From contig NZ_CP030047.1 in NCBI RefSeq assembly GCF_015291625.1, positions 2,604,001 through 2,668,000 on the forward strand: 64,000 nt of DNA. The letters are read 5' to 3'. Of the stretch, positions 528 to 18,289 are shown one piece after another. How positions within the stretch are numbered: position 1 is the stretch's first letter; each line of letters opens with the position of its first letter. The notes under the pieces were generated by a model. It saw only the letters and a program-made list of their open reading frames with translations. It ran no database searches and was not told the origin of the DNA. Origin of the DNA: Bradyrhizobium sp. CCBAU 53421. Lineage in GTDB: Bacteria > Pseudomonadota > Alphaproteobacteria > Rhizobiales > Xanthobacteraceae. A program made the position numbers and the translations under genes.

Positions 528-709
528 CCGGTCAAGCGGGCCAATTGCACCTTTTACGGGTCTGACCTGCTCGATAGCGTTTTGAGACCAAGAAGATGCG
601 CGGTTGCGTGATCGGGGTCTGCATGGCGCCGCTCGCGGAGCCGGGCAGCAATCATAAAATGTCGGGTTGTGCGGGACGCACCGTGCGATCCGGGAGGGGA
701 CATTCTGAC

Positions 710-1519: not shown

Positions 1520-1579
1520 CGCGCAGTCCACGGGACGGCGGTTCGCCGCCGCAAGCCAAGTACCGCAAGGAGGACGTCA

Positions 1580-2020: not shown

Positions 2021-2058
2021 TGCTGCGCGTGTGAGGCGTAAACCATCGGGGGAAAGCC

Positions 2059-2826: not shown

Positions 2827-2855
2827 TCCGAGAGACCAGAGAAGGGAGAGATTTC

Positions 2856-4565
2856 ATGAACGACATGCCCTGGATCCGATCCTATCCCGACGGCGTGCGT
2901 TGGGACGTCGAGATCGCTCCCGGACCCGTGCAGAAGATATTGGGCGATGCCGTTGCCAAATGGCCGGATCGTCCCGCGATCGATTTCATGGGCAAGCGGA
3001 TCACCTATGCCGAGCTCGGGCGGCTGACCGATCGCGTGGCCAAGGGATTGCAGCTCCTCGGCGTCAAGCCGGGGGTTCATGTCGGCCTCTACCTGCCCAA
3101 CACGCCGCACTACATCATCTCGTTTTTCGGCATCCTCAAGGCAGGCGGAACGGCGGTCAATTATTCGCCGCTGGACGCTGCCAAGGTGCTCGAACACAAG
3201 ATCGAGGACAGCAAGACCGACATCCTGATCACGCTCGACATGGTTTCGCTCTATCCGCAGATGGCGGCGATGCTCGGCAAGACAAGATTGAAGAAGCTGG
3301 TGGTCGGTTCGCTTGGCGAGATCACGGCTGATCCCGACACCGTCGTCAACCAGATGAAGGCGGCCAAGCAGCTGAGCGACGTCGCTTGGGACGATCATCA
3401 CATCAGCTTCGGCCAGCTGACGCACAATGATGGTGTCTACCAGGCCTATCCGATCGACAATCCGCGCGAGACGATCGCCGTGCTGCAATACACCGGCGGG
3501 ACGACAGGGCTGCCGAAGGGGGCGATGCTCACCCACGCCAACCTGACCAGCGCGTGTCAGCAGTACCGGGCGACGACGGCCGGCTCGCCGCCGGTGCTGG
3601 TCGACGGGCAGGAGCGCTTCCTGGCTGTGTTGCCGCCGTTCCACATCTACGCACTTTCCGTAAATGTGCTGTTCGGCGTCCTGATGGGTGCGGAGATCAT
3701 CCAGCACGTCCGGTTCGATCCGAAAGCTGCGCTCGAGGAGATCTCGACCAAGTCGGTCAGCGTCTTCTGCGGGGTGCCGACCATGTTCACCGCGCTGATC
3801 AACCATCCGGAGACGCCGAAGCACAGCCTGCGCGCGCTGAAATATTGCGGATCCGGCGGCGCGCCGTTGCCGCTCGAGGTGGCACAGCAATTCGCCTCGA
3901 TCACGGGCTGCAATTTGAGCGAAGGCTGGGGCATGACCGAGACCTCGCCGAGCGGCACCTACACGCCGGCGCAGCATGGTGCCATGCGCAAGGCCGGCTC
4001 CTGCGGCATGCCGATGCCCGGAATCGTCATCAAGTTCCTCAACGTCGACGACAGCAGCAGCTATGTCCCGCTCGGTGAGCGCGGCGAGATCTGCATCAAA
4101 GGCCCGAATGTGATGAAGGGCTACTGGAACAAGCCGGACGCCACCGCCGAGGTGACGACCGCGGACGGCTACATGCGCACCGGCGACGTCGGCTACATGG
4201 ATGAGGATGGCTTCATCTTCATCGTGGACCGCACCAAGGACATGCTGCTGTGCAGCGGGTTCAACGTGTATCCCCGTGTGCTCGAAGAGGCGATCTATAA
4301 ATATCCGGCGGTCGAGGAGGTCGCCGTGATCGGCATCCGCGACGAGTATCGCGGCCAGTCGCCGAAGGCCTTCATCAAGCTGAAGGCGGATGCCAAGCCG
4401 TTCAAGCTGGAAGAGCTGCAGGCGTTCCTGAAGGACAAGCTCGGCAAGCACGAGATGGTGCAGGCGCTCGAAATCCGCGCCGAACTGCCGAAGACCGCGG
4501 TCGGCAAGCTTTCCAAGAAGGAGCTGTACGACGAGGAGGAGCGGGCGGCCCGGGCGCAGGCCTGA
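2856..4565 (+). CDS. AMP-forming long-chain acyl-CoA ligase
   Basis: A 569-residue member of the ANL adenylate-forming family, which activates a fatty acid with ATP and CoA to acyl-CoA, AMP and PPi. The start at 2856 follows GAAGGGAGAG; the longer open frame upstream overlaps the SDR gene and is not real. Visible motifs are the P-loop YTGGTTGLPKGAM (about 212-224), GWGMTETSP (about 357), TGDVGYMDEDGF (about 441-455), a hinge DMLLCSGFNVYP and the C-terminal catalytic lysine in KTAVGKLSKKE. It would supply acyl-CoA to the WS/DGAT enzyme encoded next. AMP made here could be handled by the adenylate kinase at 7784, also in this cluster (inference). Confidence 0.93.
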   Translation: MNDMPWIRSYPDGVRWDVEIAPGPVQKILGDAVAKWPDRPAIDFMGKRITYAELGRLTDRVAKGLQLLGVKPGVHVGLYLPNTPHYIISFFGILKAGGTAVNYSPLDAAKVLEHKIEDSKTDILITLDMVSLYPQMAAMLGKTRLKKLVVGSLGEITADPDTVVNQMKAAKQLSDVAWDDHHISFGQLTHNDGVYQAYPIDNPRETIAVLQYTGGTTGLPKGAMLTHANLTSACQQYRATTAGSPPVLVDGQERFLAVLPPFHIYALSVNVLFGVLMGAEIIQHVRFDPKAALEEISTKSVSVFCGVPTMFTALINHPETPKHSLRALKYCGSGGAPLPLEVAQQFASITGCNLSEGWGMTETSPSGTYTPAQHGAMRKAGSCGMPMPGIVIKFLNVDDSSSYVPLGERGEICIKGPNVMKGYWNKPDATAEVTTADGYMRTGDVGYMDEDGFIFIVDRTKDMLLCSGFNVYPRVLEEAIYKYPAVEEVAVIGIRDEYRGQSPKAFIKLKADAKPFKLEELQAFLKDKLGKHEMVQALEIRAELPKTAVGKLSKKELYDEEERAARAQA

Positions 4566-4701
4566 GATCGCCTGCGTGAACCGGATCGGTCGCGGCGGAC
4601 AGGTGTCGGGCCCGGCCGCAATGCAATGACCGCGACGCGCCAGACATCGGCACACGGTCATCAAGACGGCGGCCGCCGTCACAACGTCATGGGAGGGAAG
4701 A

Positions 4702-6255
4702 ATGGATCAACTCAGCAGCATGGATGCATCGTTCCTGCATCTCGAAACGCCGGAGACGCCGATGCATGTCGGCAGCCTGATGATCTTCGATCTCCCCGAG
4801 GGCTACCAGGGCGACTACTACGAGGATGTCAAGGAGATGCTCGGCAAGCGTCTCCATCTCTCGGGATTGCTGAACCGCAAACTGGCGCAGATGCCGTTCC
4901 AGCTCGCCGAGCCGGTCTGGATCGAGGACGATGATATCGAGCTCGATTATCACGTGCGCACCGTCACCTTGCGGCGGCCAGGCACCATGGCGCAGCTCGA
5001 GCAACTGGTTGCGCGATTGCATGCTTCGCTGCTCGACCGCAGTCGTCCGCTGTGGGAGATGTATGTCATCGATGGCCTCGAGAACGGCCAGGTCGCGTTC
5101 TACACCAAGGCGCATCACAGCGGCGTCGACGGCAAGGCCGGTGTCGAGCTCGCCAAGGTGCTCTATGATGTCTCGCCCAAGATGCGCGAGGTGCCGCCGC
5201 CACGGCGCAAGCGCGCCACCGCGCAATACCAGCTCGGCGTGACCGAGCTGCTGCAGGCGGCGGCCAACAATGCGGCCCAGCAATATCGCAAGCTCGCTGA
5301 GCTGCTGCCGACGGCGGCCAAGGCGCTCGGCACCGCCGCGACCGTGATGGCCAGCCAGCGCTCGGAGAAGGGCGAGCGCTCGCTCAGCCTTGGCCTGGCC
5401 CCGAAGACGGTGTTCAACGACTCGATCACCAACCAGCGCTCCTACAGCACGATGTCGTTGCCGCTGGCCGACATCAAGGTCCTGGGCAAACGCGTCGGCG
5501 GTACCGTCAACACCATCGTCATGGCGATGTGCAGCATCGCGCTGCAACGTTTCCTCGCCGAGCGCGGCCTGCTGCCCAAGGAAGCCCTGATCGCGATGGT
5601 GCCGGTCAGCCTGCGTGCCGAAGGCGACAAGGCGATGAACAACCAGGTCTCGGCGGTTCGCGTCGATCTGGCGACCGATATCGACGACCTGCCGACCCGC
5701 TTCAAGGCGATCCACGCGTCGTCGGAGGCCGCCAAGGCCGTCGTGCGCGAGCTCAAGCCGGTGCTCGGCGTCGATGTGCCGATCACGGGGTCGCCGTGGC
5801 TGATGACCGGCCTTGCCTCGCTGCTTGGCCGCTCCAACCTCGCCAGCCGCATGCCGGCAGCGGGTAACGTGCTGATCTCCAACGTGCCGGGACCGGGGCA
5901 GCATCTCTACATGGCCGGCGCACGGATGGTGCATTATTTCCCGGTCTCGATCCCTTATCACGGCAGCGCGCTGAACATCACGGTGCACAGCTATTCGGGC
6001 CTGCTCGAGTTCGGCCTGACGGCGTGCCGGCGCGTCCTCACGCAGGACGAGTCCTACGAGATGATCGAGCATCTCCGGGCGGCCTTGCGTGAGATCGAAG
6101 CCCTGCCGCCGGTCGAGGCCGAGATCGTCGAGCTGACGCCCCAGGCTGCAGCTCAATCGAAGGCGCCATCCGCGACCGCGCCGGCGGTCACGGTCATCCA
6201 GACCGACGAGATGCCGCCGGCTGCCGCCAACGACAAGGCGAGCCGGGCCAGCTAA
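4702..6255 (+). CDS. WS/DGAT-type O-acyltransferase (wax ester synthase / diacylglycerol acyltransferase)
   Basis: A 517-residue bifunctional wax ester synthase/acyl-CoA:diacylglycerol acyltransferase homologue. The condensing motif HHSGVDG (HHxxxDG) is at residues 138-144, and the family N-terminus (MDASFLHLETPETPMHVG) and the NVPGPGQHLY segment are both present. The length is slightly above the usual ~460 because of an Ala/Pro/Thr-rich C-terminal tail (residues ~470-517). The start follows GGGAGGGAAG. The enzyme joins acyl-CoA to an alcohol or diacylglycerol to make storage lipid at the inner membrane. It lies 136 bases after the acyl-CoA ligase and 99 bases before an MFS gene. The first histidine and the aspartate of the catalytic motif are both intact. 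Confidence 0.92.
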   Translation: MDQLSSMDASFLHLETPETPMHVGSLMIFDLPEGYQGDYYEDVKEMLGKRLHLSGLLNRKLAQMPFQLAEPVWIEDDDIELDYHVRTVTLRRPGTMAQLEQLVARLHASLLDRSRPLWEMYVIDGLENGQVAFYTKAHHSGVDGKAGVELAKVLYDVSPKMREVPPPRRKRATAQYQLGVTELLQAAANNAAQQYRKLAELLPTAAKALGTAATVMASQRSEKGERSLSLGLAPKTVFNDSITNQRSYSTMSLPLADIKVLGKRVGGTVNTIVMAMCSIALQRFLAERGLLPKEALIAMVPVSLRAEGDKAMNNQVSAVRVDLATDIDDLPTRFKAIHASSEAAKAVVRELKPVLGVDVPITGSPWLMTGLASLLGRSNLASRMPAAGNVLISNVPGPGQHLYMAGARMVHYFPVSIPYHGSALNITVHSYSGLLEFGLTACRRVLTQDESYEMIEHLRAALREIEALPPVEAEIVELTPQAAAQSKAPSATAPAVTVIQTDEMPPAAANDKASRAS

Positions 6256-6354
6256 GCGGTCCGGGCCGTCAGCGCGTCACATCGCCCGAGCCGGGACGCC
6301 ACTGCGATCGCCCGCTCGGCGTCGGAATCAAAAGAACATTTGGAGGAAACCAGG

Positions 6355-7689
6355 ATGCACCCACCCGCCGCAAAGGGATCTCTGTCGGTACTGGAAAGCC
6401 CGGCGCACAAATCCCTGTTCTCGAAGATCGATTGGCGCCTGATCCCGCTGCTGCTGATCGCCTATATGATCGCCTATCTCGATCGCATCAATATCGGCTA
6501 TGCGCAGCTGCAGATGAAGCAGACGCTGCCGTTCGACGACGCGGTCTACGGTCTTGGCGCGGGCATCTTCTTCGTCGGATACTTCCTGTTCGAGGTGCCG
6601 AGCAACCTGCTGCTGGAGCGGATCGGCGCGCGCAAGACCCTGCTGCGCATCATGGTGCTGTGGGGGCTCGCGGCAGCCGCCATGATGTTCGTGTCGACAC
6701 CGTTCCAGTTCTATCTTGTCCGCTTCCTGCTCGGTGTGTTCGAGGCCGGCTTCTTTCCCGGCGTGATCCTGTACTTCACCTATTGGTATCCGTCGGCGCG
6801 GCGCGGGCAGGTGATCGCCACCTTCATGTCGGCGACAACGATCGTTTCCGTGATCGCCGGTCCGCTGTGCGGCTCGATCCTGAAGTATTTCGACGGTGCG
6901 GGCGGCCTCCACGGCTGGCAGTGGCTGTTCCTCGTGCAGGGTCTGCCGGCGCTGATTCTCGGCATCCTGGTTTACGCCTTGCTCGAGGACAAGCCCGCGC
7001 AGGCCGCGTGGCTCTCGAAGGACGAGAAGGCCCTGCTCGAAGATACTTTCCAGCACGATGAGAAGGACGTCGTGAGCGAGCCCTCGGGAACGTTCGGGCA
7101 GATGTTGAAGGATCCCAAGGTGTATGTATTGTCGTTCGTGTATCTGCTGCTGCTCGGTGCGACCTACACGATGGTGTTCTGGATGCCGACCCTGATCCAG
7201 AGCTGGGGCGTCAAGGATCTGTTCCTGGTCGGCGTCTATGCCGCGATCCCGAATGCCGCCGGCGTCATCGGCATGATCCTGATAGGCCGTCACTCCGACA
7301 AGTGGCACGAGCGCCGCTGGCACTATGCGGCCTGCGTTGCGATCGCCGCCTTCGGCCTGTTCATCACCACGATGCTGCAGGGCAATCTCGTCGGATCAAT
7401 CCTTGCGCTGTCCTTTGCGGTGATCGGCATTGCGTCGGCGACGCCGCTGTTCTTCGCGCTGACCAGCGAATACCTCTCCACCGGCGCCGCCGCCGGCGGG
7501 CTTGCGCTGATCTCCAGTCTCGGAAACCTCGGGCCGGCGATCAGTCCCTCGATCAACGGCCTGATCGTGCGCAGCACCGGCGACAACATCTACAGCATGT
7601 ACTTCGTGATGGCGCTTTACGTGCTGTCGGGATTGCTGTTGCTGCTGTCGATGCGGCCTGCGCCCAGTGCGCGCCTGGCGATGGCGTGA
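6355..7689 (+). CDS. MFS transporter, anion:cation symporter (ACS) type
   Basis: A 444-residue, 12-helix major facilitator. The start at 6355 is preceded by GGAGGA; a TTG 15 bases upstream is less likely. It opens with a cytoplasmic stretch followed by WRLIPLLLIAYMIAYLDRIN, and the LDRxNIGYA motif is the signature of the ACS family (phthalate, tartrate, hexuronate and similar organic anion carriers). The central loop is about 50 residues long and charged. It lies inside the lipid cluster on the same strand, so the substrate may be a carboxylate feeding that pathway, but this is only positional inference. Family assignment is secure. Confidence 0.88.
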   Translation: MHPPAAKGSLSVLESPAHKSLFSKIDWRLIPLLLIAYMIAYLDRINIGYAQLQMKQTLPFDDAVYGLGAGIFFVGYFLFEVPSNLLLERIGARKTLLRIMVLWGLAAAAMMFVSTPFQFYLVRFLLGVFEAGFFPGVILYFTYWYPSARRGQVIATFMSATTIVSVIAGPLCGSILKYFDGAGGLHGWQWLFLVQGLPALILGILVYALLEDKPAQAAWLSKDEKALLEDTFQHDEKDVVSEPSGTFGQMLKDPKVYVLSFVYLLLLGATYTMVFWMPTLIQSWGVKDLFLVGVYAAIPNAAGVIGMILIGRHSDKWHERRWHYAACVAIAAFGLFITTMLQGNLVGSILALSFAVIGIASATPLFFALTSEYLSTGAAAGGLALISSLGNLGPAISPSINGLIVRSTGDNIYSMYFVMALYVLSGLLLLLSMRPAPSARLAMA

Positions 7690-7783
7690 GGACGATTCGA
7701 GCGGCCCGGCCCGCACGGAGCCGGACTGCTCGACGCTCCGCGGGAAAGCTGCCGGTGATCGAGCGAATATTGGGACACATGCG

Positions 7784-8380
7784 ATGAGGATCGTTCTGCT
7801 GGGGCCGCCTGGTGCAGGCAAGGGAACGCAGGCAAGGCGCCTGGTCGAGGAGTACGACATACCGCACCTTTCGACCGGCGACATGCTGCGTGCTGCGGTC
7901 GATGCGGACACCAGTATTGGGCGGAAAGTCAAGGATACCATGGTGAGGGGTGGGCTCGTTCCCGATCAGCTCGTGATTGCCGCGGTGATCGAACGCATCT
8001 CGCAAGCCGATGCCAAGCGTGGCTTTGTGCTCGACGGCTTCCCGCGAACGATTGCCCAGGCGGTCGGGTTCGACGATCTGCTCGATACCGAAGGTCTTGC
8101 GATCGACCATGTCGTTGAGCTCAAAGCCGACGAGACGGTGTTGCTGGACCGGATCGAGACGCGGGCCCGCGAAGCGAGAGCGCAAGGTGGCGCGGTGCGC
8201 GCCGACGACAATCACGAAACGCTCAAACTGCGGATCGACGCCTATAACGAGCAGACTGCGCCGCTGGTCGACTACTATCGATCGCGGAACATCCTTCGAA
8301 CCGTGGACGGGCTGCAGCCGGTCGATGCCGTCGCCTTCGACGTCGTCAAGGCGATCGGCCAAGATCGGTCGGTGATGTAA
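7784..8380 (+). CDS. adk: adenylate kinase, short-LID type
   Basis: A 198-residue adenylate kinase (ATP + AMP to 2 ADP). The P-loop GPPGAGKGT is at residues 7-15, followed by LSTGDMLRAAV, the DGFPRT AMP-binding motif and RADDN before the C-terminal domain. The LID is the short form with no zinc-binding cysteines, as is common in alphaproteobacteria. The start ATG at 7784 is the obvious P-loop-proximal choice; the frame extends upstream but into the MFS gene. It is not in the ribosomal-protein operon where the housekeeping adk usually lies, so it may be a second copy. Its TAA stop overlaps the next ATG (TAATG). Confidence 0.92.
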   Translation: MRIVLLGPPGAGKGTQARRLVEEYDIPHLSTGDMLRAAVDADTSIGRKVKDTMVRGGLVPDQLVIAAVIERISQADAKRGFVLDGFPRTIAQAVGFDDLLDTEGLAIDHVVELKADETVLLDRIETRAREARAQGGAVRADDNHETLKLRIDAYNEQTAPLVDYYRSRNILRTVDGLQPVDAVAFDVVKAIGQDRSVM

Positions 8381-8697
8381 TGCCGGCGACGCCAAATCGC
8401 GATCCGCGATACCGGCCGTCCGGCTATCTCGACCGGATCGAGGTGCTGGAGCCATTGCGCAAGTCGCTCGGCGAGGTGAAGGAGACAGCCGACCAATTCG
8501 AGCAGGCCCAGCTGTTGTTGCGGGCAATCGAACGGTTCTCCCGCACATATGCTGCCGACCGGAGCTGCGCCGGTACACCCGCCGAGCTGGCGCGGCGCGA
8601 CGAACGTCGCCTGGCGCGGCGGCGGCTTGTGGCACGCGCCGTCCGTGGATTGCGCAAAACCGTTCTGGCAGCGAAGGGAGGCGCCTCATGTCGGTGA
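8380..8697 (+). CDS. small basic protein of unknown function
   Basis: A 105-residue frame that starts in the stop codon of the adenylate kinase gene (TAATG) and ends ten bases inside the next SDR gene, so translational coupling on both sides supports that it is real. I do not recognise a family. The N-terminal half (SGYLDRIEVLEPLRKSLGEV) is predicted helical and acidic/basic mixed; the C-terminal half is very arginine-rich (RRDERRLARRRLVARAVRGL). No signal peptide or membrane segment is visible. A role connected with granule binding or nucleic acid is possible but unsupported. Confidence 0.6.
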   Translation: MPATPNRDPRYRPSGYLDRIEVLEPLRKSLGEVKETADQFEQAQLLLRAIERFSRTYAADRSCAGTPAELARRDERRLARRRLVARAVRGLRKTVLAAKGGASCR

Positions 8698-9485
8698 GCG
8701 GAAATGAAGGTCAATGCGCGCTGGTGACCGGAGCATCGGGCGGCATTGGGCTCGAGCTCGCGCGCGTGCTCGCGGCCAATGGCTTCAGCCTCGTGCTGCT
8801 GGCGCGCAGCCGCGACAAGCTGCAGGAACTCGCCCGCGAGCTGAAGGCCAGTCACGGCACCAAGGTGACCATCGTGGCCGCCGACCTGAGCGAGCCGGCG
8901 GCGCCGCAGGCGGTGTTCGATTCGCTTGACGACGCCGGCGTGCGGGTCGACCTGCTGGTGAACAATGCCGGCCTGTTGCTCGAAGGACGCGTCAGCTCGA
9001 TCGGCCTCGAAGACCAGTTGCGGCTGCTGCAGGTCAATGTCGTGGCTATGACGGCATTGACCCGTCTGTTCCTCGCGCCGATGCTCGAGCGCAACAGTGG
9101 ACGGATCCTGAACGTTGCGTCGGTTGCGGCGTTCATGCCGGTGCCGAACCTTGCGGTCTATGCCGCGTCAAAGGCCTATGTGCTGTCGTTTGGCGAGGCG
9201 CTGTCGCAGGAATTGAGCGGCAGCAAGATCACGCTGACGACATTGTGTCCCGGCGTGACGGACACCGGAATGGTCCAGGGCACCAATCTCGGCAACATGC
9301 CTAGCATGATGATCATGGATGCGAAGACCGTCGCACAGGAGGGCTACCGCGCCTGCATGGCGGGGAAGCCGGTGCATGTCGCCGGGCTTGCCAACGAGCT
9401 GGCGGTCCAATGGATCAAGTATCAGCCGAGCTGGCTGTTGCGGGCCATCGGCGGGGTGTTCGGGAAGGCCGCACCGCCGAACTGA
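8688..9485 (+). CDS. SDR family oxidoreductase, second copy
   Basis: A 265-residue short-chain dehydrogenase of the YqjQ/DltE-like group. TGASGGIGLELAR (cofactor) is at the N-terminus, NNAG near residue 97, NVASVAAFMP carries the catalytic serine and YAASK lies near 158-162. The C-terminal region (WIKYQPSWLLRAIGGVFGKA) is amphipathic and may touch a membrane or granule. The start overlaps the preceding small gene by ten bases. It differs clearly from the SDR at 2059, so it is not a recent duplicate. In a WS/DGAT cluster a fatty aldehyde or ketoacyl reductase role is possible but not proven. Confidence 0.9.
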   Translation: MSVSGNEGQCALVTGASGGIGLELARVLAANGFSLVLLARSRDKLQELARELKASHGTKVTIVAADLSEPAAPQAVFDSLDDAGVRVDLLVNNAGLLLEGRVSSIGLEDQLRLLQVNVVAMTALTRLFLAPMLERNSGRILNVASVAAFMPVPNLAVYAASKAYVLSFGEALSQELSGSKITLTTLCPGVTDTGMVQGTNLGNMPSMMIMDAKTVAQEGYRACMAGKPVHVAGLANELAVQWIKYQPSWLLRAIGGVFGKAAPPN

Positions 9486-9554
9486 CGTCTCGTGCTCGCC
9501 GGGCAATGTCCGGTTGCACGAGCTACTCGTGATCATCAACAACGGACGCTACTC

Positions 9555-10331
9555 ATGGGACGTGACGAGCAGACCGTCGAACCACCCTCGCTCGCGCTGC
9601 TTGCCGCCGAAGGGCGCGGCTTTCTCGACATCCCGGCGCTGCTTGCCGTGGCGGCGCCGCTTCTGGCGACCGCGCCGCGGGGGCAGCGGCATCCGGTAAT
9701 GGTTCTGCCCGGGTTGGGCGCGGATGACCGCTCGACCTTGGCCATCCGCTCATTCCTCGAGTTCCTCGGCTATCAGGTTCATGGATGGGGCCGCGGCCGC
9801 AATGTGCGCGCGCCGGACGCCGACCTTGCCGCCGTGGTGGCACGAGTCCTCGAACTCGAAAAGCAGGGCGGCTCGAAGGTCAGCCTGGTCGGCTGGAGCC
9901 GCGGCGGCATCATTGCGCGCGAGGTCGCGCGGCAAATCCCCGCGGCGGTGCGGATGGTCATCACGCTCGGCAGTCCGTTCGCGGCGCCGGGGGCGAGCAA
10001 TGTCCGCGCGATCTGGCGGCTTCTGACCGGCCAGAAATACCAGCCGCCGACCGCCGAACGGATCAGCCGCCTCGCGCAACCGATCCCCGTGCCGTCAACA
10101 TCGATCTATACCCGCACCGATGGTGTGGTGGCGTGGCGCGCCTGCCTGGAGCAGGAGGGCGGCGAGCGCGAGAACGTCGAAGTGAACACGACGCATTTGG
10201 GGCTTGGCTTTCACGCGCCGGCGCTGTGGGTGATTGCCGATCGGCTCGCCCAGCCGGCGGGTAGCTGGAAGCCGTTTCGTCCGCCTCCGCAGGTTGCAAT
10301 CTGGTTTCCGGCAGCGACGCGTCGCGATTGA
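9555..10331 (+). CDS. alpha/beta hydrolase, second copy
   Basis: A 258-residue alpha/beta hydrolase with the same layout as the protein at 710-1519: HPVMVLPGLGADDRST, GYQVHGWGRGRN, nucleophile elbow GWSRGG (Ser-115), acid Asp-189 in YTRTDGVVAW and His-214 in THLGLG. The ATG at 9555 is preferred; a GTG at 9492 is in frame but has no ribosome site, and the ATG's own site is weak. It closes the plus-strand cluster, ending 26 bases from the convergent LysR gene. The pair probably arose by duplication, and both keep the full triad. Substrate unknown. Confidence 0.82.
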   Translation: MGRDEQTVEPPSLALLAAEGRGFLDIPALLAVAAPLLATAPRGQRHPVMVLPGLGADDRSTLAIRSFLEFLGYQVHGWGRGRNVRAPDADLAAVVARVLELEKQGGSKVSLVGWSRGGIIAREVARQIPAAVRMVITLGSPFAAPGASNVRAIWRLLTGQKYQPPTAERISRLAQPIPVPSTSIYTRTDGVVAWRACLEQEGGERENVEVNTTHLGLGFHAPALWVIADRLAQPAGSWKPFRPPPQVAIWFPAATRRD

Positions 10332-10357
10332 GATCGCAAGGCGCAGCCTGCCTGAGT

Positions 10358-11284
10358 CTACCGCGCGCTGCTTCCCGGTGACCGCATTTCCCCGACCATC
10401 ATCCGCAGCAGCTGCATCGCGGCGGGCGGCAGCGTGCGTCCCTGACGGGAGACCACGTGGGTGCGGCCACGATGCAGCAGCGCGTTCTTCATCGGCAGCG
10501 CCACCACCCTGGCGGCATCGGCCTCCGTCATCGCAAGGCGCGATGCCAGCGCATAGCCGAGTCCTGCGGTCACGTAATGGGCGAGCGCATCGAACGAGGC
10601 GGTCGTGAACGCGAAATTGAGGCGGACGCCTTCGCTGATCTCGGCGGCCTGGACATGCTGGCGCAGGCCGAAATTCGGATGCATTGCGGCTCCGGGATAG
10701 GGTGCGAGGTCGGCGAGCCTGAGCGGCCGGCCGAGCTGGGTCAGCGGATGCCCGCGCGGTACGATGGCCTTGATCGGATGCGGTTGCGAATGATGCGAGC
10801 GCAGTCGATCGTCGCGCGGCGGATTGAACAGGACGCCGATATGCGCGCGTTCTTCCACGACCTGCTGGACGATCTCGTCGGTGCTGCCGATGTCGAGGCT
10901 GATCGTGATCTTCGGGTGGGTTTGCATGAAGCGGCTCAGGCTGCTCTTGGCCAGCCAGTCGACGTAACCTTCGCCCGTCACGAGATCGATATGACCCGAC
11001 TCGACCTTGCGGATGCTGTCCATCTGCGCGAGCAGCGCCTGTCGTTCGCCTTGCTGGCGGTGCAGGTAGGCGGCCAGCAGCTGGCCGGCGTCGGTCGGCG
11101 CAACGCCGCGCCCGCGCCGTTCGAGCAGGCGCGCGCCATATTCCTTCTCGAGCAGGCCAAGCGCCCGGCTGACCGCCGAGGCATCCATGCCGAGCGCGCC
11201 GGCGGCGCCGCGCACCGAGCCGCTATTGAGCACCTCCATGAAATAGTGCAGTCGGCGCGGCTCCAGCTTGGCGTTCATCGGCAT
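10358..11284 (-). CDS. LysR-family transcriptional regulator
   Basis: A 308-residue LysR regulator. The N-terminal winged HTH (about residues 9-66) contains GAAGALGMDASAVSRALGLL and LLERRGRGVAPTDAG. The rest is a type-2 periplasmic-binding effector domain with the ITISLDIGSTDEIVQQV segment. It reads away from the DUF5996 gene across a 347-base gap and is convergent with the hydrolase. LysR proteins often control a divergent neighbour, which here would be the frameshifted DUF5996 gene; that link is inference. The ligand cannot be told from sequence. Confidence 0.9.
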   Translation of the reverse strand: MPMNAKLEPRRLHYFMEVLNSGSVRGAAGALGMDASAVSRALGLLEKEYGARLLERRGRGVAPTDAGQLLAAYLHRQQGERQALLAQMDSIRKVESGHIDLVTGEGYVDWLAKSSLSRFMQTHPKITISLDIGSTDEIVQQVVEERAHIGVLFNPPRDDRLRSHHSQPHPIKAIVPRGHPLTQLGRPLRLADLAPYPGAAMHPNFGLRQHVQAAEISEGVRLNFAFTTASFDALAHYVTAGLGYALASRLAMTEADAARVVALPMKNALLHRGRTHVVSRQGRTLPPAAMQLLRMMVGEMRSPGSSAR

Positions 11285-11631
11285 GGTCCTGATCGTTGCA
11301 CACAGAGCAACGAATATTCAATCGCGCGGCTATTTATGCAAGCATGCCGGGTGGGGCCGCGAGAGCGGATCAGCATCAGGCGTTGGATTCGAAGGCGCGC
11401 GGGTCGGGTGAAGCGTCACCGATGGACAGCTTGTCCTCGACGATGCAGACAAATTGTCTGTTGCTGCCGGACGTTTCGCTTCCAAGCCATTGAGATTGTT
11501 TCTGTGCCGAAGTTGGCGCATTCTTTGCCACCGGGACTTTCGATCTCTGGCGGATCGGAAATCGCCAAGCCGTGCTGAACGAGTAGGTGAAACTCCTGTC
11601 AGGCCCCAAGTGCCTTATGTAAGGATGCGCC
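11285..11631. other. intergenic region between divergent LysR and DUF5996 genes
   Basis: A gap of 347 bases with no convincing coding frame, tRNA or strong inverted repeat. It should hold the LysR promoter and autoregulatory site near its left end and the promoter of the DUF5996 gene near its right end. I could not pick out a T-N11-A site with confidence. Short plus-strand frames here have no ribosome sites or recognisable products. Confidence 0.5.
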
Positions 11632-12545
11632 ATGATGACCGGCAGCCGCACTTCCGATTTCTGGCTGGCTTTTTCCGGCCCGGCCTTCGCGCCGACACGA
11701 CATCTTCTCCACATGGCGCTACAGGCCGTCGGCAAGCTCAAGCTCGCCGAACCGTTTCAGGCGCAATGGGCCGAGGTGCCGTTGTGGCTCAGCGCGCGAG
11801 GGCTGACCACCGGCCCGATCCGTCATGCCGGCGGCGTCTACGAGGTCCGCGCGGACTTCATCTCGCACGAGCTGCAGTGGCTCACGAGTTCGGGCGCATC
11901 GGGACAATTGCCGCTGGGGCCGACATCCGTTGCCGCGCTCGTGGATGCTCTGCTCGATCAGCTTCGTGGCGCCGGCATTGACGCTTCAATTAATCTCCTG
12001 CCACAGGAACTGCCCCGTCCGATCCCCTTCAACGAGGACAAGGAGCAGCGCCCATACGATCGCGACCTGGTCAACGCGTGGTGGCGTATCCTCCTCGGCA
12101 CGCAACGCGTCCTTCAGACCTTTCAGGGCCGGTTCACGGGCAAGACGCAACCCATCGGCCTGATGTGGGGAACGCTGGATATTCGCGTGGTGTTCTATAA
12201 CGGCAAGCCCGTCACACCCGCGCAGGATATCGGCTTCATCCGTCGTAATGCCATGAATGCGGAGCTGATCGAGATGGGCTGGTGGTCGGGCGATGCCGCC
12301 TATCCAAGGTCCGCGTTCTACTCCTTCACGTACCCGCAGCCGCAAGGCAGCGAGAGCGCCAAAGTCGGTCCGGCCGCCGCCCGATGGGACACGGGCATGG
12401 GCGAGTTTCTGCTCGACTACGACGACCTTCGCCAGTCCGGCGACCCGAACGTGACCTGCTGAGCTTCCTCGAATCCACCTATCGCGCCGGCGCAACCGCG
12501 GCAGGGTGGGATTCCCGACTGTTGGGCAGCGGCCGTCCGGAGTGA
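11632..12545 (+). pseudogene. DUF5996 family protein, C-terminus lost by a one-base frameshift
   Basis: The main frame (11632-12462, 276 residues) is a DUF5996 protein: it has the FSGPAFAPTRHLLHMALQAV start, the PFNEDKEQRPYD segment and the PVGLMWGTLDI-like motif typical of this uncharacterised family. The frame stops after GDPNVTC, but a second frame running to 12545 continues with family-like sequence (DLLSFLESTYRAGATAAGWD). Restoring one G in CCGAA near 12448-12452 would read G-D-P-E-R-D-L-L-S without interruption. This is therefore a recent frameshift or a sequencing error. The truncated product may still fold, since only ~29 residues are lost. Function of the family is not known. Confidence 0.75.
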
Positions 12546-12624
12546 AGCGCCCGCGAACGCAAGCACGTTTCTGCTGCGGTGGCCGTCTTGCGGGCAAACG
12601 GTATTCAGCAAGGCATTGATACGC

Positions 12625-12674
12625 TTGGTGGGCCCGGCAGCACTCGAACCTGCAACCAGACCGCTATGAGCGGC
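12625..12674 (-). repeat. degenerate 3' half of tRNA-Ile(CAU), candidate island attachment site
   Basis: These 50 bases match the 3' half of the tRNA at 18077-18126 at 48 positions, in the same orientation, from the CCA end through the T-arm to the anticodon loop (anticodon CAT still visible). Similarity stops abruptly inside the anticodon stem. One of the two differences breaks a T-stem pair, so this copy is no longer under selection. A displaced tRNA 3' end is what an integrase leaves at the far end of an inserted element. Confidence 0.85.
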
Positions 12675-12863
12675 GGGATACGATCGGTTTGGTTGATTTG
12701 GCCGCGCTTTCGTTCGAGTTTGATCGCGTTCGCTGCGTTTCGGTGAGCTCGTCTCTGGTGCGGTGATCGGCTGTCGAATTGAAGGAGTTGGACATTTGCC
12801 GCGATCGGCATTGCGTCGATTTTGACTTTCGGATTTTCAAACCGCTCGTCCGGGAAGATCGGG

Positions 12864-13856
12864 CTAGAAGGTCACGGTAACGACGATGGTGTCCGCGTAG
12901 GTTCCCGCAGGTGGTGAGGTTTGTGGCAGAACGCGCCCATAGACCGAGACATTCTGGTTCAACGCTGTACCTGTGCCAAGCACGCAGGTATTGGCGCCCG
13001 ACGTGCAGGTTGTAGCGGATGTCGTACTTGTCCAGGCGCTGGTCCGGGCTGCGTCCGTATAGAGATTGTAATTGATGAAGCTGGAGCTTGCCTGCATGCG
13101 CCGCTGGCTGCCGCTTGCGTGTAGTCCGTTGTCGAGACCGATCGAGTACGGGGTCGTATTGGTGCATTTCACTGAAATCGTTCCAACGCCGTCAATATTC
13201 GACGTCAACAGTGAAGCGCTACCGAAGTTGAGTGGTGTGGTCGAAACAATGCAATTTCCTGCGATTGTCGCCGTCCAGGGCGAGGAGCCCGCATTTGTCG
13301 TCGTCCCCGGGTTCGACGAACAATTCGGGCTGGTCAAAAGATAGGCCGCATAGGCGACGACCGGAGAGGTCGTACTCCAGACGTAGGTCCCGGGTATCGT
13401 TGCCTGCTGATTGGCGAGAAAGCGCCCATAGACGGTCAGAGTTTGTTGCGCGGGCCCGCCCAAAAGGGGAAGGCTGAGATTGATGCTGACGCCACCGGAG
13501 CCATATGCGGTGGTACCATATCCCCAGGATCCCCAGACCTGCGTGCGCCCGGAATCCGTATAGAGCTCGTGTATTGCCGTATTCGCCCCACTTCCAAGTG
13601 ATCGAACCGAGCTGCCGCTGTTGGGCGCCCCCTGGTTGAATTGCACACACGCATTGACCGTGCAGCCGAGCGCACAGCCGCTGCATGTGACGCTAAATGT
13701 CGAGGTCGTGTCGACGGCGCCACCTGCCAGGATGTCGACAGATCCGTAGTTGCCGGACGCCGAGGTAACGGAGCAGCTTTGGGCGTGGGCTGAAAACGAT
13801 GCCGCAAATTGCAGGAGCAAGGCAAAGACCAGGGTTCGCTTTGAGCCGATGACCAC
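12864..13856 (-). CDS. spore coat U domain protein, two-domain (CsuE-like) pilus tip candidate
   Basis: A 330-residue secreted protein with a signal peptide (TLVFALLLQFAASFSAHAQS, cleavage after about residue 25) followed by two spore-coat-protein-U domains. The second one (about 195-330) has the hallmark PYSIGLDNG, RRMQASSSFINYNLYTD and a C-terminal strand ending in VVTVTF, as needed for donor-strand capture. The first is shorter in hallmark residues but cysteine-rich (CSGCALGCTVNAC). A two-domain subunit encoded last in an archaic chaperone-usher operon is typically the tip adhesin, as with CsuE of Acinetobacter (established for Csu, inferred here). It lies 89 bases after the usher gene. 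Confidence 0.85.
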   Translation of the reverse strand: MVIGSKRTLVFALLLQFAASFSAHAQSCSVTSASGNYGSVDILAGGAVDTTSTFSVTCSGCALGCTVNACVQFNQGAPNSGSSVRSLGSGANTAIHELYTDSGRTQVWGSWGYGTTAYGSGGVSINLSLPLLGGPAQQTLTVYGRFLANQQATIPGTYVWSTTSPVVAYAAYLLTSPNCSSNPGTTTNAGSSPWTATIAGNCIVSTTPLNFGSASLLTSNIDGVGTISVKCTNTTPYSIGLDNGLHASGSQRRMQASSSFINYNLYTDAARTSAWTSTTSATTCTSGANTCVLGTGTALNQNVSVYGRVLPQTSPPAGTYADTIVVTVTF

Positions 13857-13945
13857 GATTTCGATCTCGCAATGCGGGTTGGTCAGAACGGATGATCAAG
13901 GAAACTGACGCACGAGGGCACTGTTTTACGTGGGAAATGACTGCA

Positions 13946-16417
13946 TCATTGGCACACGACCCCGGGGATCCGGACCTGTTCGCCCGGCCGCGGATTGAAC
14001 GCAAACGTGGCGCGGCAGCGTGCGTCGGCAAGCTCGATTTCGGCTTCGTTCATTGACGAGAGCCCCCTGATATAGGCCTGTCCGTCGTAGCCTACGACAA
14101 ACTCTACTCCACCGGTCATGTGGCCGACGGCCCCGGCCGGCAGAACGCGATTGTCAGGCCCGACAAAGGTAACCAGGGCAGCCGTCGTCTCCTTGCGGAC
14201 GTCAAATCTGACGAGCATTCCGGCGCGATCGGCCGGAGCGACGATGTCATGCGTCGCTGCTGCCTCGTCGTCGACCGGAAGGTTCGTCGGGTCGATCGCA
14301 ATCTTGTTCTTCTGGTAGGACCGGAGCGTCGGGATCAGCAGCATGCCGCGGGAATCGGTGACACCAGCCCGCCGGTTCTCGCTGAGGACCTCGACATCCG
14401 GCACGCCAGTCGCGACCACCGCGAAACTGTCGTCGATCCAGTTCGAAAGGAAAACGCCGCCGCCCATGGTGGTGATCGAACCGCGCAATTCCAGCGATCC
14501 CACGCTGCCGGCTCCGGCCTGGCTTGCGCCTGCCTGGATGGTTCCGTAGCTCGACCTGTAGGAAGCCGTGGCCTCCCGGTAACTCGATGCGCCTTCGGAA
14601 TCGTGCACGCGCCAGCCGTAGCTGCCTGGCTCCGGCCCAAGCGACTTGACGGCATCAACGCTACCGGTGGTGCCGTTCCGTCCGCTCGAAACCCCGGTCG
14701 TAACAGAGGCTGCGTCGCCAAAAGGAATGCTCAAACCGGCAAACACGCCGGTGTTCTTTTTGCTACAGAAATCGTGGAAGACGGTGGAAAATATCGACGC
14801 ATTGTACGGTAACGAACGCGAGTAAGAGGCCGTCACGATATTGGAACGATGGCCTGAGGCATCGCGCAGATCGACAAAGCTTGCACTCAGGTTGGCCCGA
14901 GGGTCGAACGGCATCGGGGCGCTGAAAGTGATGCGATCGAGTGCGACCGGCGCACGGGCGCTGCCATAGATGCCCGTCACATAGGCAAACGAGTTCGACA
15001 ATGAAGCGATACTGCCGGGCAGGTAATTGAATAGACCGTTCAGATTTTGCAGGCCGCCGTTCAACGCCGCGATGTTTTGCAATCTTGCGGTCGCCGAGGC
15101 AAGGTCGTCATAGGTGCCGAAGGTGTGTTGCGAACTCGCCGAAATACTCACGCCGAAGAGCCGGGTCTCATAGGACGCGTAGCTCTGCAGACCGCGGTTC
15201 GTGCCGCTTCCGCTGCCAGCCAAGGCCACGGCGGCGACACCGATCGTCCCGGTCCTGAAGACACCACCGATGCCACCGTTGATGACGCCGGCTCCGGCTT
15301 CGACGTGCGCCTCTGCTGTCAAGCCGTCGTAGATACCTCGTCGCAGGGTTGCAGACCCGACAGGCGAGCCGACATAGACGTCACTGCTTGAGCCGTAGGA
15401 CAGCCGCGGCAATCCGCCCTCCACGGACCAGCTGCTCAGCCCGGGCGCAAGCAGGCTCGAGGTCGCATAAAACGGCGCCGACGTCTGGATTTCGTGACCT
15501 GCCGAGTCCCGCACCACGAGTTGCGTCGTGCCGGCGCCGGAAATCAGCGGTACGTTGTTCACGCTGAAAGGGCCGGACGCGATGTCCTGAGAAAATGTCT
15601 TGATGTTGTTGACATAGACATCGACGGTTGACGGCACTGCCGCGCTACCGCCGATCGTCGCGAGCGGCGCGGTGATGAGATCGGGCCGCAGGGCAAAATC
15701 GCGTTGAGCCTGAAGGCCGCCGATCCTGATCGGCCGCGACCAGGCCAGTCCGCCGTTGATCGTATCCCCGGCAACGTAGCCGATCATCCGGCCCTGGTCG
15801 GAATACTGGAAAGACGAATTCAGCCGTGTCGCCTGCGCAGGCTGCTGCGGACCAGTGCGGACGATCGCCGACTGTTCGGCGGTGCCGTAAGGCGAAAACG
15901 CCCGGGCATCGAGCAAAAGCGATGTGTAACCGAGCCCGATCAATCTCGGGGTAGCTGCGTTGCTGGTTGAGCTCAACAGGTCATAATTCAGCACCGCGCC
16001 GGGATCGGCCCGCGCCTTTGGCAGGTTCCCGCTGGAGCTGCCTGCGTCAAAGAGCTGCGGCTTGCGTCCGGCTTCGTCGACGGCAATGAATATCCGCTGT
16101 GTTCTCTCCTCATATCGATACTTTAGGGTCGGGATATCATCCAGTGCGATGATCTCGCCCGGTCGATGCGGCGGGCCTGGTTGCAGGCCGAGGCTTTCCA
16201 GTTCCTCCACCGTTCCGCCGATACGACCGTCATCGAACCGTACGAATGATCCGATCGTTCGGGCGGACATGGAGTTGATCACGACATCGAGCTGCAGATT
16301 TGTCTGGTGCTCCGCCGCGCGCGAACGCCCGGCACAGAGGACCATGCCAAGGAGTGCTAAGACGGACACAAGCGTGGAGCCTCTTCTACCGACGAGTCTG
16401 CGACTCAATAACCGCAT
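13946..16417 (-). CDS. fimbrial outer-membrane usher protein (CsuD-like)
   Basis: An 823-residue FimD/PapC-family usher that exports pilus subunits through the outer membrane. The ATG at 16417 is chosen because AAGGG precedes it and it gives a clean signal peptide (VSVLALLGMVLCAGRSRA); a start 54 bases upstream is possible. The protein has the N-terminal domain (about 30-140), a long barrel region with a SAPFYATSSLLAPGLSSWSVEGG plug-like stretch, and C-terminal domains with GMLLIPTLRSYQKNKIAIDP. Its 5' end overlaps the chaperone gene by 32 bases. The size matches archaic ushers. It is intact. Confidence 0.92.
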   Translation of the reverse strand: MRLLSRRLVGRRGSTLVSVLALLGMVLCAGRSRAAEHQTNLQLDVVINSMSARTIGSFVRFDDGRIGGTVEELESLGLQPGPPHRPGEIIALDDIPTLKYRYEERTQRIFIAVDEAGRKPQLFDAGSSSGNLPKARADPGAVLNYDLLSSTSNAATPRLIGLGYTSLLLDARAFSPYGTAEQSAIVRTGPQQPAQATRLNSSFQYSDQGRMIGYVAGDTINGGLAWSRPIRIGGLQAQRDFALRPDLITAPLATIGGSAAVPSTVDVYVNNIKTFSQDIASGPFSVNNVPLISGAGTTQLVVRDSAGHEIQTSAPFYATSSLLAPGLSSWSVEGGLPRLSYGSSSDVYVGSPVGSATLRRGIYDGLTAEAHVEAGAGVINGGIGGVFRTGTIGVAAVALAGSGSGTNRGLQSYASYETRLFGVSISASSQHTFGTYDDLASATARLQNIAALNGGLQNLNGLFNYLPGSIASLSNSFAYVTGIYGSARAPVALDRITFSAPMPFDPRANLSASFVDLRDASGHRSNIVTASYSRSLPYNASIFSTVFHDFCSKKNTGVFAGLSIPFGDAASVTTGVSSGRNGTTGSVDAVKSLGPEPGSYGWRVHDSEGASSYREATASYRSSYGTIQAGASQAGAGSVGSLELRGSITTMGGGVFLSNWIDDSFAVVATGVPDVEVLSENRRAGVTDSRGMLLIPTLRSYQKNKIAIDPTNLPVDDEAAATHDIVAPADRAGMLVRFDVRKETTAALVTFVGPDNRVLPAGAVGHMTGGVEFVVGYDGQAYIRGLSSMNEAEIELADARCRATFAFNPRPGEQVRIPGVVCQ

Positions 16418-17129
16418 GAGTCTGGCCCTTGTCCGTTTCCGCCGTGACAGAGATGGATCCGCCGGATCCAAAGCCGCGAGGATATTTCAGCGTGGCCCAA
16501 CTCATGGAGGAATGTCCGAGGACATAGCCGAGGAGGCCGTTGCCAAAGGACAAGGTAGCTCCCGAAGAATCCTTAAGCCGCAAGTTTGCGATGCGTAGCC
16601 GTTCGTCGCCGGCATTGCGTGTCACGACGGTCAGTTGGCCGGCTTCGGTGCGGAGCGCCCAGGAAACCTGCGGCCGGCTGATCTCGCGGCCGCGAAAGAA
16701 CGCGGGGATCGACTGTCGTACCAAAAGATTGACGCTGCGACCTTGGCTGCCGCCTGCTCGCGGCAATTGGTCGACGATGACGCGATAGCTCTCTTCGCCG
16801 TTGACCGGCTGTTTCGACACTCGCACAACTCGCACGACGTAGTCTGAATGAGGCGCCATCCTGACGGCCGGAGGCGATGCCACCACGTCGGCTGTCGGTT
16901 CAAGCTTCTCCTTGCCGTCGGACTGCGACCAGCGAAGCACGCGGGTCTGGACTTCGACGTCGGCATCTTCGTCATTGCGCAGCGTCAGGGAAGCCGCCGC
17001 CGCCGGCGCATTCAGTTCCAGGAGAACCGGTTCAACGCGGAGCGCGGTGGCATGGGCAACCTCCAAGCATGCCAAGCTTGCGGCAAACGCGGCCAACAGC
17101 GTCGAGTTTTGATGCATCGCGATGCCCAA
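16386..17129 (-). CDS. fimbrial periplasmic chaperone (CsuC-like)
   Basis: A 247-residue PapD-like chaperone with a signal peptide (start MGIAMHQNSTLLAAFAASLA, cleavage near ACLEVAHA). Two immunoglobulin-like domains follow: the first contains RVEPVLLELNAPAAAASLTL and YRVIVDQLPR, and the VNLLVRQSIPAFF segment is the G1-like donor strand that completes subunit folds. A second in-frame ATG 12 bases downstream could be the start. It lies between the major subunit and usher genes, as in csu operons, and its end overlaps the usher start. Confidence 0.9.
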   Translation of the reverse strand: MGIAMHQNSTLLAAFAASLACLEVAHATALRVEPVLLELNAPAAAASLTLRNDEDADVEVQTRVLRWSQSDGKEKLEPTADVVASPPAVRMAPHSDYVVRVVRVSKQPVNGEESYRVIVDQLPRAGGSQGRSVNLLVRQSIPAFFRGREISRPQVSWALRTEAGQLTVVTRNAGDERLRIANLRLKDSSGATLSFGNGLLGYVLGHSSMSWATLKYPRGFGSGGSISVTAETDKGQTHAVIESQTRR

Positions 17130-17212
17130 TCGATTTCAAAATCGTGCGCTAAAAAGGCTTTTCGTCGATACGCAGATGCAACGGAACAGCGGGCCGCTGC
17201 TGCGGCCCTTCT

Positions 17213-17866
17213 TCAATAGGTGATGGTCATGACCACCGTGTCCGTATAGGTGCCGGTGCTCGGTGCGGTGCCGGTAGCGGGAACGGTGCCGTAAATGTTG
17301 ATGGTCTGCGCCGATCCGTTACCGGTGCCGAGAAAGCAGCCATTCGTGGTCGTGCAGGTGGTGCTGCTGGTTGCCGTGGTCCAGGGGTTGGTATGGGCTG
17401 AATCAGTATAGAGATCGTAGTTGATAAAATTCCCGGCATTCGCCATCCGCCGCTGGCTGCCGGACACATTTGCTCCGTTGTCCATGGCGATGGAGTACGG
17501 GCTGCCATTGGTGCAGGTGACCGAGACGGTTGTGCTGCCCGACTGCAATGTGGTCGCGAGCGTTGTTCCGGACACGCTCCCGAAATTGAGCGTCGCAGCG
17601 TTGATTGTGCAAGACGCCGTGATGGTGATCTGAACGGTCAAATTTGCGGTCGATGTGCCGGCCTGAGCGGACGTTTGATAACCGGATGCCACGGCAACGA
17701 AGAGCGCGACCGCTGCCATTCGCGCAGCCTGCCGGATTCGTCGCTTCAGCAAAGGACCGCGGTCGTCGCGGATGCGGATCTTTCGACAAGCATCGAAAAC
17801 CCTGCAGGCCGCTTTCCTGGTCAGCCGGAAACCTTCTTCGGTATCGTCCAATGAATTCGTTTTCAT
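17213..17866 (-). CDS. spore coat U domain protein, single-domain major pilin candidate (CsuA/B-like)
   Basis: A secreted single-domain SCPU protein with a hydrophobic segment (MAAVALFVAVASGY) and A-Q-A cleavage site, then a mature domain of ~145 residues rich in Thr, Ser and Gly. PYSIAMDNGANVSGSQRRM and FINYDLYTD are diagnostic, and it ends in a beta strand VVMTITY. The start is uncertain: ATG at 17866 gives a long charged leader, ATG at 17719 gives a leader with no positive charge, and a TTG at 17974 extends the frame further. It is the first gene of the pilus operon, 83 bases before the chaperone, so it is probably the shaft subunit. Confidence 0.8.
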   Translation of the reverse strand: MKTNSLDDTEEGFRLTRKAACRVFDACRKIRIRDDRGPLLKRRIRQAARMAAVALFVAVASGYQTSAQAGTSTANLTVQITITASCTINAATLNFGSVSGTTLATTLQSGSTTVSVTCTNGSPYSIAMDNGANVSGSQRRMANAGNFINYDLYTDSAHTNPWTTATSSTTCTTTNGCFLGTGNGSAQTINIYGTVPATGTAPSTGTYTDTVVMTITY

Positions 17867-18077
17867 CGCCAATTGTGCCCGGACACGCAGGCCATCGTCG
17901 TCAACAAAAGAATCAAAATTGGGTAAACTTTGAATGAGCAAAAGCTTCGCGAGGCCTGATCGAACTATCGACAACTATGACCCCATCAAAAACTATAATG
18001 GTCAGCAAAGTCCGCCGGCGGCTTCGGGGCCACACCGGCTCTGGCTGCGCTTGGGCCTGGCCGCCCTCTGAACTCAT

Positions 18078-18153
18078 TGGTGGGCCCGGCAGGACTCGAA
18101 CCTGCAACCAGACCGTTATGAGCGGCCGGCTCTAACCATTGAGCTACAGGCCC
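18078..18153 (-). tRNA. tRNA-Ile(CAU) (lysidine-type; possibly annotated tRNA-Met)
   Basis: A complete 76-nt cloverleaf on the minus strand with encoded CCA. The acceptor stem is GGGCCTG/CGGGCCC, the D-arm GCTC/GAGC, the anticodon stem GGCCG/CGGTC around the loop CTCATAA (anticodon CAT) and the T-arm GCAGG/CCTGC with TTCGAGT. The body resembles the E. coli tRNA-Ile2 that needs lysidine at C34 rather than elongator Met, so isoleucine AUA decoding is the preferred call. Its 3' half is duplicated at 12625-12674. Confidence 0.9.
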
Positions 18154-18289
18154 CGCCGCCTTGCGGGCCGCGGGGGGCGGCCGGCAACGGTGCGGGCTCC
18201 GTTTACAGGGTGCGTGGGGTTTCGGCAATGCCACCGCCGGAACCTCGTGCCGCACGCAGCCGCATCGGTCTCCCGAGCCAGCACGGCCC

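Follow-up and report, generated by a model that had tools for sequence, protein, structure and literature searches.

A pilus operon between a tRNA-Ile(CAU) gene and a copy of its 3' half in Bradyrhizobium sp. CCBAU 53421: a probable small integrase-less island

Pilus genes between a tRNA gene and a partial copy of it

The DNA analyzed here is a 64-kb stretch (the window) of the genome of Bradyrhizobium sp. CCBAU 53421, positions 2,604,001-2,668,000 of a 9.26-Mb single-contig genome. The element under study is a 5,452-base unit with predicted pilus genes, located between the only tRNA gene of the window and a copy of the 3' half of this gene (Table 1). The genome is referred to as G000, relatives are coded by G and a number, fetched loci by L and a number, and contigs by C (coordinates for parts of G093 and G010 are off by one). 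ARAGORN placed the single tRNA at 18078-18153 on the minus strand, with anticodon CAU, and labeled it tRNA-Met. A gene trnI-CAT is reported at 7,790,768-7,790,843 of strain USDA6T (PMC3927601), and since our tRNA match in G147 has the same coordinates, the gene was read as tRNA-Ile(CAU).

Positions 12625-12677 directly repeat positions 18077-18129, with 50 of 53 bases identical. In a comparison against the window this match had an E value of 1e-18, and the runner-up had an E value of 0.25. As judged from the coordinates, homology stops at tRNA position 25-28, where the anticodon stem begins. A preliminary description, prepared from the sequence of the window, had reported a direct repeat at 12625-12674 (48 of 50 positions) ending inside the anticodon stem; the repeat was reproduced in a slightly longer form. 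An intact tRNA gene at one end and a repeat of the tRNA 3' end (hereafter, the core) at the other is the arrangement seen in tRNA-targeted islands.

The four interior open reading frames (ORFs) gave Pfam matches to SCPU, Usher, PapD_N, and SCPU, and the chosen ORFs cover 91% of the island interior. Sequence matches to proteins of solved structure pointed to the Csu system for three of the proteins, and to FimD and a related usher for the usher. SCPU subunits, a PapD-like chaperone, and an usher are found together in one predicted operon, as in archaic chaperone-usher pili, and both kinds of matches agree with the earlier proposal that a four-gene operon of this type fills the interior. The proteins resemble those of Csu and other archaic pili (sigma fimbriae) in that an SCPU pilin, a CsuC-like chaperone, an usher, and a CsuE-like two-domain subunit are predicted, but here there are four genes; the csu cluster of Acinetobacter reportedly has six. 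Neither a sigma-70-like promoter nor a terminator was found in the 17860-18200 interval.

Base composition of the island is atypical, as is common for tRNA-targeted islands. The G+C content is 60.1% inside the island versus 65.6% in the rest of the window, and the lowest-G+C 5.4-kb stretch of the window (scanned in 200-base steps) begins at offset 12600. Third-position G+C is 0.68-0.73 in the island genes versus 0.74-0.89 in nine neighboring genes. The lower G+C content of the interior, previously noted by eye, is thus confirmed by measurement.

Table 1. Predicted features of the pilus unit and its borders (window positions)
Feature	Position	Strand	Evidence
Left arm of the neighboring unit; resembles DNA that directly follows the 3' end of tRNA-Ile(CAU), or its fragment, elsewhere	12567..12624	+	Arm alignment; BLAST of arm at 2616567-2616597, 81%, E 0.006; DUF5996-locus homology (G132, G004) stops at 12545
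Core, distal island end: 53-base tRNA-Ile(CAU) 3'-half copy	12625..12677	-	50/53 identical to 18077-18129; same junction in G132, 96.2% over 52 bases
Right (distal) arm; aligns with cognate integrase gene 3' end of other strains; one CTGGTGCGG repeat at 12755-12763	12678..12763	-	Alignment
Two-domain SCPU protein, probably tip adhesin (CsuE-like)	12864..13856	-	PF05229 in two stretches; 8cio SCPU protein, 6fjy CsuE
Outer-membrane usher, start codon uncertain	13946..16471	-	PF00577; PF13953 slightly below cut-off; usher chains, mostly FimD
Periplasmic pilus chaperone (CsuC-like)	16386..17129	-	PF00345; 5d6h and 6fjy CsuC, E about 1e-18
SCPU pilin, probably main subunit; true start probably within ORF	17213..17974	-	PF05229; CsuE and CsuA/B (query 17216-17866)
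tRNA-proximal arm of the pilus unit; also conserved where other copies end on the right	17881..18076		82-92% identical over 113-196 bases in 9/12 loci
Intact tRNA-Ile(CAU) gene, 18078-18153; second core, 18077-18129	18077..18153	-	ARAGORN, repeat comparison

An empty site and the distribution of the unit in the genus

In G132, the order of flank, tRNA fragment, and operon is the same as in G000, with the same borders and 93.8% identity over window positions 12609-18073. In G143, 3.2 kb of G132-type flank (96.4% identical) runs straight into a single intact tRNA gene. There is one difference between the two genomes in the 60 bases preceding the core, and the sequences diverge only near tRNA position 25, past which the G132 sequence is that of the island arm and the G143 sequence that of the tRNA 5' half. 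As read from the alignment, this pair of junctions is what integration at the 3' end of a tRNA should produce. The preliminary description had proposed a search for an empty site with a single tRNA in related genomes; such a site is present in G143, where the flank that adjoins the fragment in G132 meets one intact tRNA directly. By these alignments, past insertion of the pilus unit at tRNA-Ile(CAU) is strongly supported.

The genus has many copies of the tRNA 3' end: an arm-core-arm query run on 24 genomes selected from 146 (22 of the 24 are single-contig assemblies) gave 112 matches in the 24 genomes, including intact tRNAs and a few arm-only matches. This abundance would suit a repeat that arose by chance or by an ancient partial tRNA duplication unrelated to mobility. 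For the locus studied here, however, this explanation is already refuted by the exact empty site in G143. In addition, among 20 other loci first examined, only L043 matches the window beyond ~115 bases past the tRNA 3' end, while L041 resumes window-like sequence after an insertion. We consider such an origin extremely improbable.

A search of 265 genomes of the genus with island DNA (threshold E <= 1e-30) revealed matches in 17. In 12 of these, G000 included, at least 5.1 of 5.39 kb matched at 87% identity or higher; in G073 the unit is split over two contigs; and G133, G162, G215, and G218 contain only pieces or distant homologues. The pilus unit is thus patchily distributed, being present in 13 of the 265 genomes, G000 included. 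A scan of named genomes located it in B. acaciae, B. oropedii, B. altum, B. macuxiense, B. tropiciagri, B. embrapense, B. uaiense, and two further species, and also returned two distant metagenome records (46-49%). The tRNA-proximal arm had no match in these two records or in a B. uaiense contig that has the left end only.

The positions of the unit vary as well. When 9 kb of left-hand DNA was compared across the 12 unit-bearing genomes, one left neighbor was common to G132, G093, G184, and, with a 3-kb stretch between, G172; a second was shared by G000 and G068, and a third (780 bases) by G066 and G163. G143, G145, G285, and G220 had no left neighbor in common with the others. The intact tRNA adjoins the unit in G000 and G093, and is separated from it by ~4.6 kb in G172 and by ~6.4 kb containing two further cores in G285. 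No intact tRNA-Ile(CAU) was found within the 40 kb fetched for G066, G163, G143, G184, G145, G068, and G220. G066 contains a whole unit with cores at both ends, and in G143, the genome with the empty site, the unit lies 1.46 Mb away and has a core at its right end. An operon fixed at the same place in all close relatives, the observation named beforehand as one that would speak against an island, is therefore not what was found: there are 13 carriers among 265 genomes, and the positions are variable.

Stacked units, arms, and the integrase question

The backbone that G000 has in common with its relatives ends near 2,571,540, and is followed, up to the tRNA, by a series of blocks, each of which only some relatives have at this place. 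The first block is 16 kb long (also in G004 and G093), the next is 2.5 kb (also in G132, G143, G145, and G093), and then come a 26-kb block (G000:C1:2590505-2616545, including window positions 1-12,545), the pilus unit, and the tRNA. The pilus unit is the tRNA-proximal member of this stack. This row of variable blocks rules out that core chromosome starts left of 12625. The left junction of G000 was also rejected as an original one, the 12567-12624 segment being the arm of the neighboring 26-kb block, which is placed elsewhere in G132 and G004. In G132 and G143, the 2.5-kb block is preceded by a decayed tRNA fragment (~84% over 25-26 bases), which marks the border. Most of the 26-kb block (24.9 kb) is also in the tRNA array of G145, and DNA of this block lies left of the unit, on the side away from the tRNA, in G068. 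Successive cores in a single orientation occur in G002, G138, G019, G130, and G147.

Several features of the 26-kb block may be recorded here. G132 and G004 have it elsewhere in the chromosome, and there the DUF5996 gene is on its opposite side, resembling a circular permutation; the DNA fetched for these loci contained no tRNA core. In the window, the DUF5996 ORF stops at 12462, while homology with G132 and G004 continues to 12545 (segment 12460-12545), which may reflect a frameshift near the gene end. An adenylate kinase-like ORF at 7667-8380, as judged from its translation, is perhaps a second adk copy.

Thirty loci (7 intact tRNAs and 23 fragments) were fetched from the matches to the arm-core-arm query. 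In the alignment of core sites, the core is accompanied by left and right arms with CTGGTGCGG-type repeats, two of which are present in the distal arm of G066. Selection from loci already fetched, which is no census, yielded 22 core-bounded units of 1.6-16.8 kb; a 23rd, 38 kb in length, in G145 was excluded from this count. No integrase domain (PF00589) was found in 21 of the 22, two of the units having been checked by family profile only, and one contains a truncated integrase. The cargo of some of these units comprises KdgT, a sugar-kinase-like protein, and PdxA; DUF3604, PPIase, and HupE; a cNMP-binding protein; an FAD enzyme and a periplasmic binding protein; or an amidohydrolase. More tRNA-Ile(CAU) cores, one with both arms, are found far from the tRNA gene in G000 itself (G000:C1:3013807-3056125 and 7046464-7052189), together with an integrase remnant near 3043710. 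The core pair at 7046464-7052189 encloses a 5.6-kb unit that encodes KdgT, a sugar-kinase-like protein, and PdxA.

The pilus unit has no integrase of its own. A PF00589 search of G000 gave 12 matches, none of them between 2,251,990 and 3,043,710 and hence none near the unit, and the profile of the cognate family described below found nothing in the window, in line with the earlier remark that no integrase is visible. The cognate family is represented by a 409-aa PF00589 integrase from G145, with relatives at E <= 1e-90 in 48 of 146 genomes; loci were tested for the best 30 of the matches at this threshold. In the six closest (76-100% identical, the G145 gene included), a 48-52-base tRNA-Ile core lies ~30 bases from the gene, and in 14 others an intact tRNA-Ile(CAU) lies ~100 bases away. 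In the six closest, the 3' end of the integrase gene sits in the place of the right arm, with a similar repeat pattern, TTTCTGTGGCGTAGCTGTGGCGG or TTTCTGAGGCGAAGCTGAGGCGG versus TTTCTGGTGCGAAACTGGTGCGG. Given the alignment of its distal arm to the integrase gene 3' end, the pilus unit looks like an element that has the arm but not the gene. An integrase of this family was found within 1.5 kb in one of the 30 loci from the arm-core-arm query.

The family profile was also applied to 30-57 kb of DNA around each of the 12 near-complete pilus units. No copy of the unit has an integrase inside. In G184, an intact family integrase, 65% identical to the G145 protein, is located 10.4 kb right of the unit, with no tRNA-Ile core beside the gene. 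In G145, the unit is preceded by a frameshifted family member (L260 13851-15050, G145:C11; 57% identical in the longer piece), which reads into the 3' end of a different tRNA-like sequence, while a cognate integrase with a core is present on another contig. These two cases rule out that family integrases are absent near every copy. In the other 10 contexts the profile found none; integrases of other families were searched for in only some of these. The intact gene of G184 fits a helper within reach and the broken one of G145 fits loss, and neither is decisive.

We consider it probable (about 0.7) that the core-to-core unit is a small integrase-less island, i.e., an att-bounded cargo islet of the cis-mobilizable element (CIME) type that carries an archaic pilus operon. 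In general usage, a CIME is bounded by att-like sites and lacks genes for recombination and transfer. From its sequence, the pilus unit appears to have both properties; an integrase-bearing element related to it in the same genome or array, which would also be expected, was not found in G000 at E <= 1e-90. A tyrosine integrase acting on the tRNA 3' half would have made the recombination; it would probably belong to the 409-aa family, which other elements encode and whose genes lie, in other strains, next to tRNA-Ile(CAU) or a fragment of it. A 5.45-kb circle would be freed by excision between the two cores. Mobilization by the integrase of another element is plausible, while present mobility in G000 is doubtful: since no close member of the 409-aa family is found there, the unit is probably fixed now.

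Several observations weigh against this reading. G000 contains no member of the 409-aa family at E <= 1e-90, and its distal arm retains a single repeat, one of the G066 pair having been lost. The association of the family with the tRNA is incomplete, since in 10 of the best 30 integrase loci either 15-38 tRNA-Ile bases (four loci) or none (six loci) are found nearby. Among the 12 copies, the left-end core is kept in three and lost in nine, and a tRNA or core is found within 50 bases of the right end in six; in G285 a core is 437 bases from the unit, and in G132 an insertion of ~15 kb separates the unit from the tRNA. The broken integrase 0.25-1.4 kb left of the unit in G145 could mean that plain loss of an integrase took place there. 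The element and the flanking TctC gene give conflicting trees, and the whole case is built on sequence.

Some of these observations would follow if the island had arrived with its own integrase, which was later deleted, and had been immobile since, the other positions resulting from rearrangements and loss. The missing cognate integrase in G000, the broken family member beside the unit in G145, the likeness of the distal arm to an integrase gene tail, the eroded ends of many copies, and the truncated integrase beside a core in the G019 array all suit such a history, and large rearrangements linked to symbiosis integrative and conjugative elements (ICEs) are described for the genus (PMC9174649). 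However, the integrase-less unit has seven different left neighborhoods among 12 genomes; G143 combines a clean tRNA site with a unit elsewhere that has a right-end core; arms are common to different cargo units without an integrase; and the broken integrase of G145 belongs to a more distant branch and lies beside another tRNA-like end. We therefore regard loss of a resident integrase as a serious competitor, yet the less likely account. The preliminary description had left a choice between a relic and a satellite mobilized in trans. This choice has been narrowed by the correspondence of the arm to an integrase 3' end, by G145, which fits loss, and by G184, which fits a helper.

The trees raise the further question of homologous recombination. 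In the TctC tree (970 columns), two of eight inner branches are well supported. G066 is 98.2 and 97.3% identical to G172 and G132, respectively, in the element, and 94.0 and 93.5% identical to them in the TctC gene. The discordance was rejected as proof of transfer of the whole unit because the profile of G066 shows a mosaic inside the operon: at about 10.0-13.0 kb it is 97.7-100% like G172 and 88-97% like G163, and close to the right end (14.2-15.1 kb) the likeness is about 97% to G163 versus 88-96% to G172. Ordinary homologous recombination thus moves part of this DNA, which also counts against the islet reading. Recombination via flanks, cores, or the operon could in principle move the entire unit, an integrase being irrelevant after the first insertion, and the mosaic speaks for this. 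Against it, the junctions fall exactly at the tRNA core, and sites that have no integrase gene still retain the arm repeats; we consider this mode of movement unlikely as the general explanation. The island interpretation offered in the preliminary description is supported by the empty site, by the patchy occurrence and variable position of the operon, by its lower G+C content, and by the lack of family profile matches in the window.

A separate observation concerns L041 (G132:C1:3245725-3262500). At about 1215-16215 of this locus, ~15 bases from the tRNA-Ile(CAU) 3' end, a ~15-kb insertion is present. Its ends read TGTACGG...CCGTACA, CCCTC is a likely 5-base target duplication, and CGAGTCACTCTT motifs occur repeatedly; among its proteins are matches to ZacA, ZacB, ZacC, and SspF (PADLOC). 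The insertion may be Tn7-like; no transposase was identified. At least two CGAGTCACTCTT motifs within 150 bases are found in six of 54 distinct tRNA-Ile(CAU) 3' flanks, and a Tn7-like family may therefore target this tRNA.

Relation to known islands and meaning for Bradyrhizobium

Tandem stacking and integrase-less units are already known, since both are described in PMC3927601 and PMC3146451. In USDA6T, 15 islands were reported, five of them without an integrase; three are located at trnI-CAT, one of these without an integrase (PMC3927601). In the same work, trnI-CAT is considered a possible hotspot, with several consecutive duplications; multiple trnI-CAT insertions are mentioned for USDA110 as well, and four trnI-CAU copies are given for USDA6T, three of them within islands. 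Extra tRNA copies in islands likely explain the cores found far from the backbone tRNA. BJ6TGI13 of B. japonicum USDA6T resembles the pilus unit in using the same tRNA gene, with a 48-base duplication, and in being small (6,478 bp), free of an integrase gene, and lower in G+C (PMC3927601). It differs, as do the other trnI-CAT islands, in its cargo; the 17 genomes with matches to the pilus DNA do not include G147. The available text of PMC3927601 does not discuss arms or a helper integrase for the USDA6T trnI-CAT islands.

The unit is like CIMEs of the accretion model in its att-like bounds, in lacking integrase and transfer genes, and in being stacked with other elements at one site (PMC3146451); G000 differs in that no element with a cognate integrase was found. 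Islands at ssrA of Dehalococcoides are also arranged in tandem at one RNA gene, each bounded by a 3'-end repeat, and 15 of 31 are without an integration module, such units being named possible cis-mobilizable elements; they have a 20-bp repeat and a CcrB-like recombinase, and all repeats lie within 100 kb of ssrA (PMC3146451). Unlike there, the core here is 53 bases long, the integrase family is of the tyrosine type, and cores are found far from the tRNA. CcrB-like recombinases are of the serine type. The monopartite symbiosis ICE of Bradyrhizobium also has a tRNA-Ile attachment site and is a possible source of an integrase (PMC9174649, PMC9239051); at about 0.63 Mb it is unlike the 5.45-kb unit. 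A literature search that covered few subscription papers found neither this pilus island nor the sharing of arms with the 409-aa integrase described in any paper.

As a tentative extension, which we judge somewhat less likely than loss of a resident integrase, tRNA-Ile(CAU) fragments may form a genus-wide cassette site. Integrase-less units of 1.6-17 kb with a few metabolic, transport, or adhesion genes, and with common core and arm repeats, would be stacked, excised, and moved between arrays by the integrase of some elements, like a macro-scale integron with a half-tRNA site.

The cargo of the unit studied here would provide the cell with a thin adhesive pilus. The empty site and the displaced copies document an adhesion pilus operon carried as a very small tRNA island in Bradyrhizobium, and the results point to a candidate helper integrase for integrase-less islets at a hotspot that is listed without a mechanism in the available text of PMC3927601.

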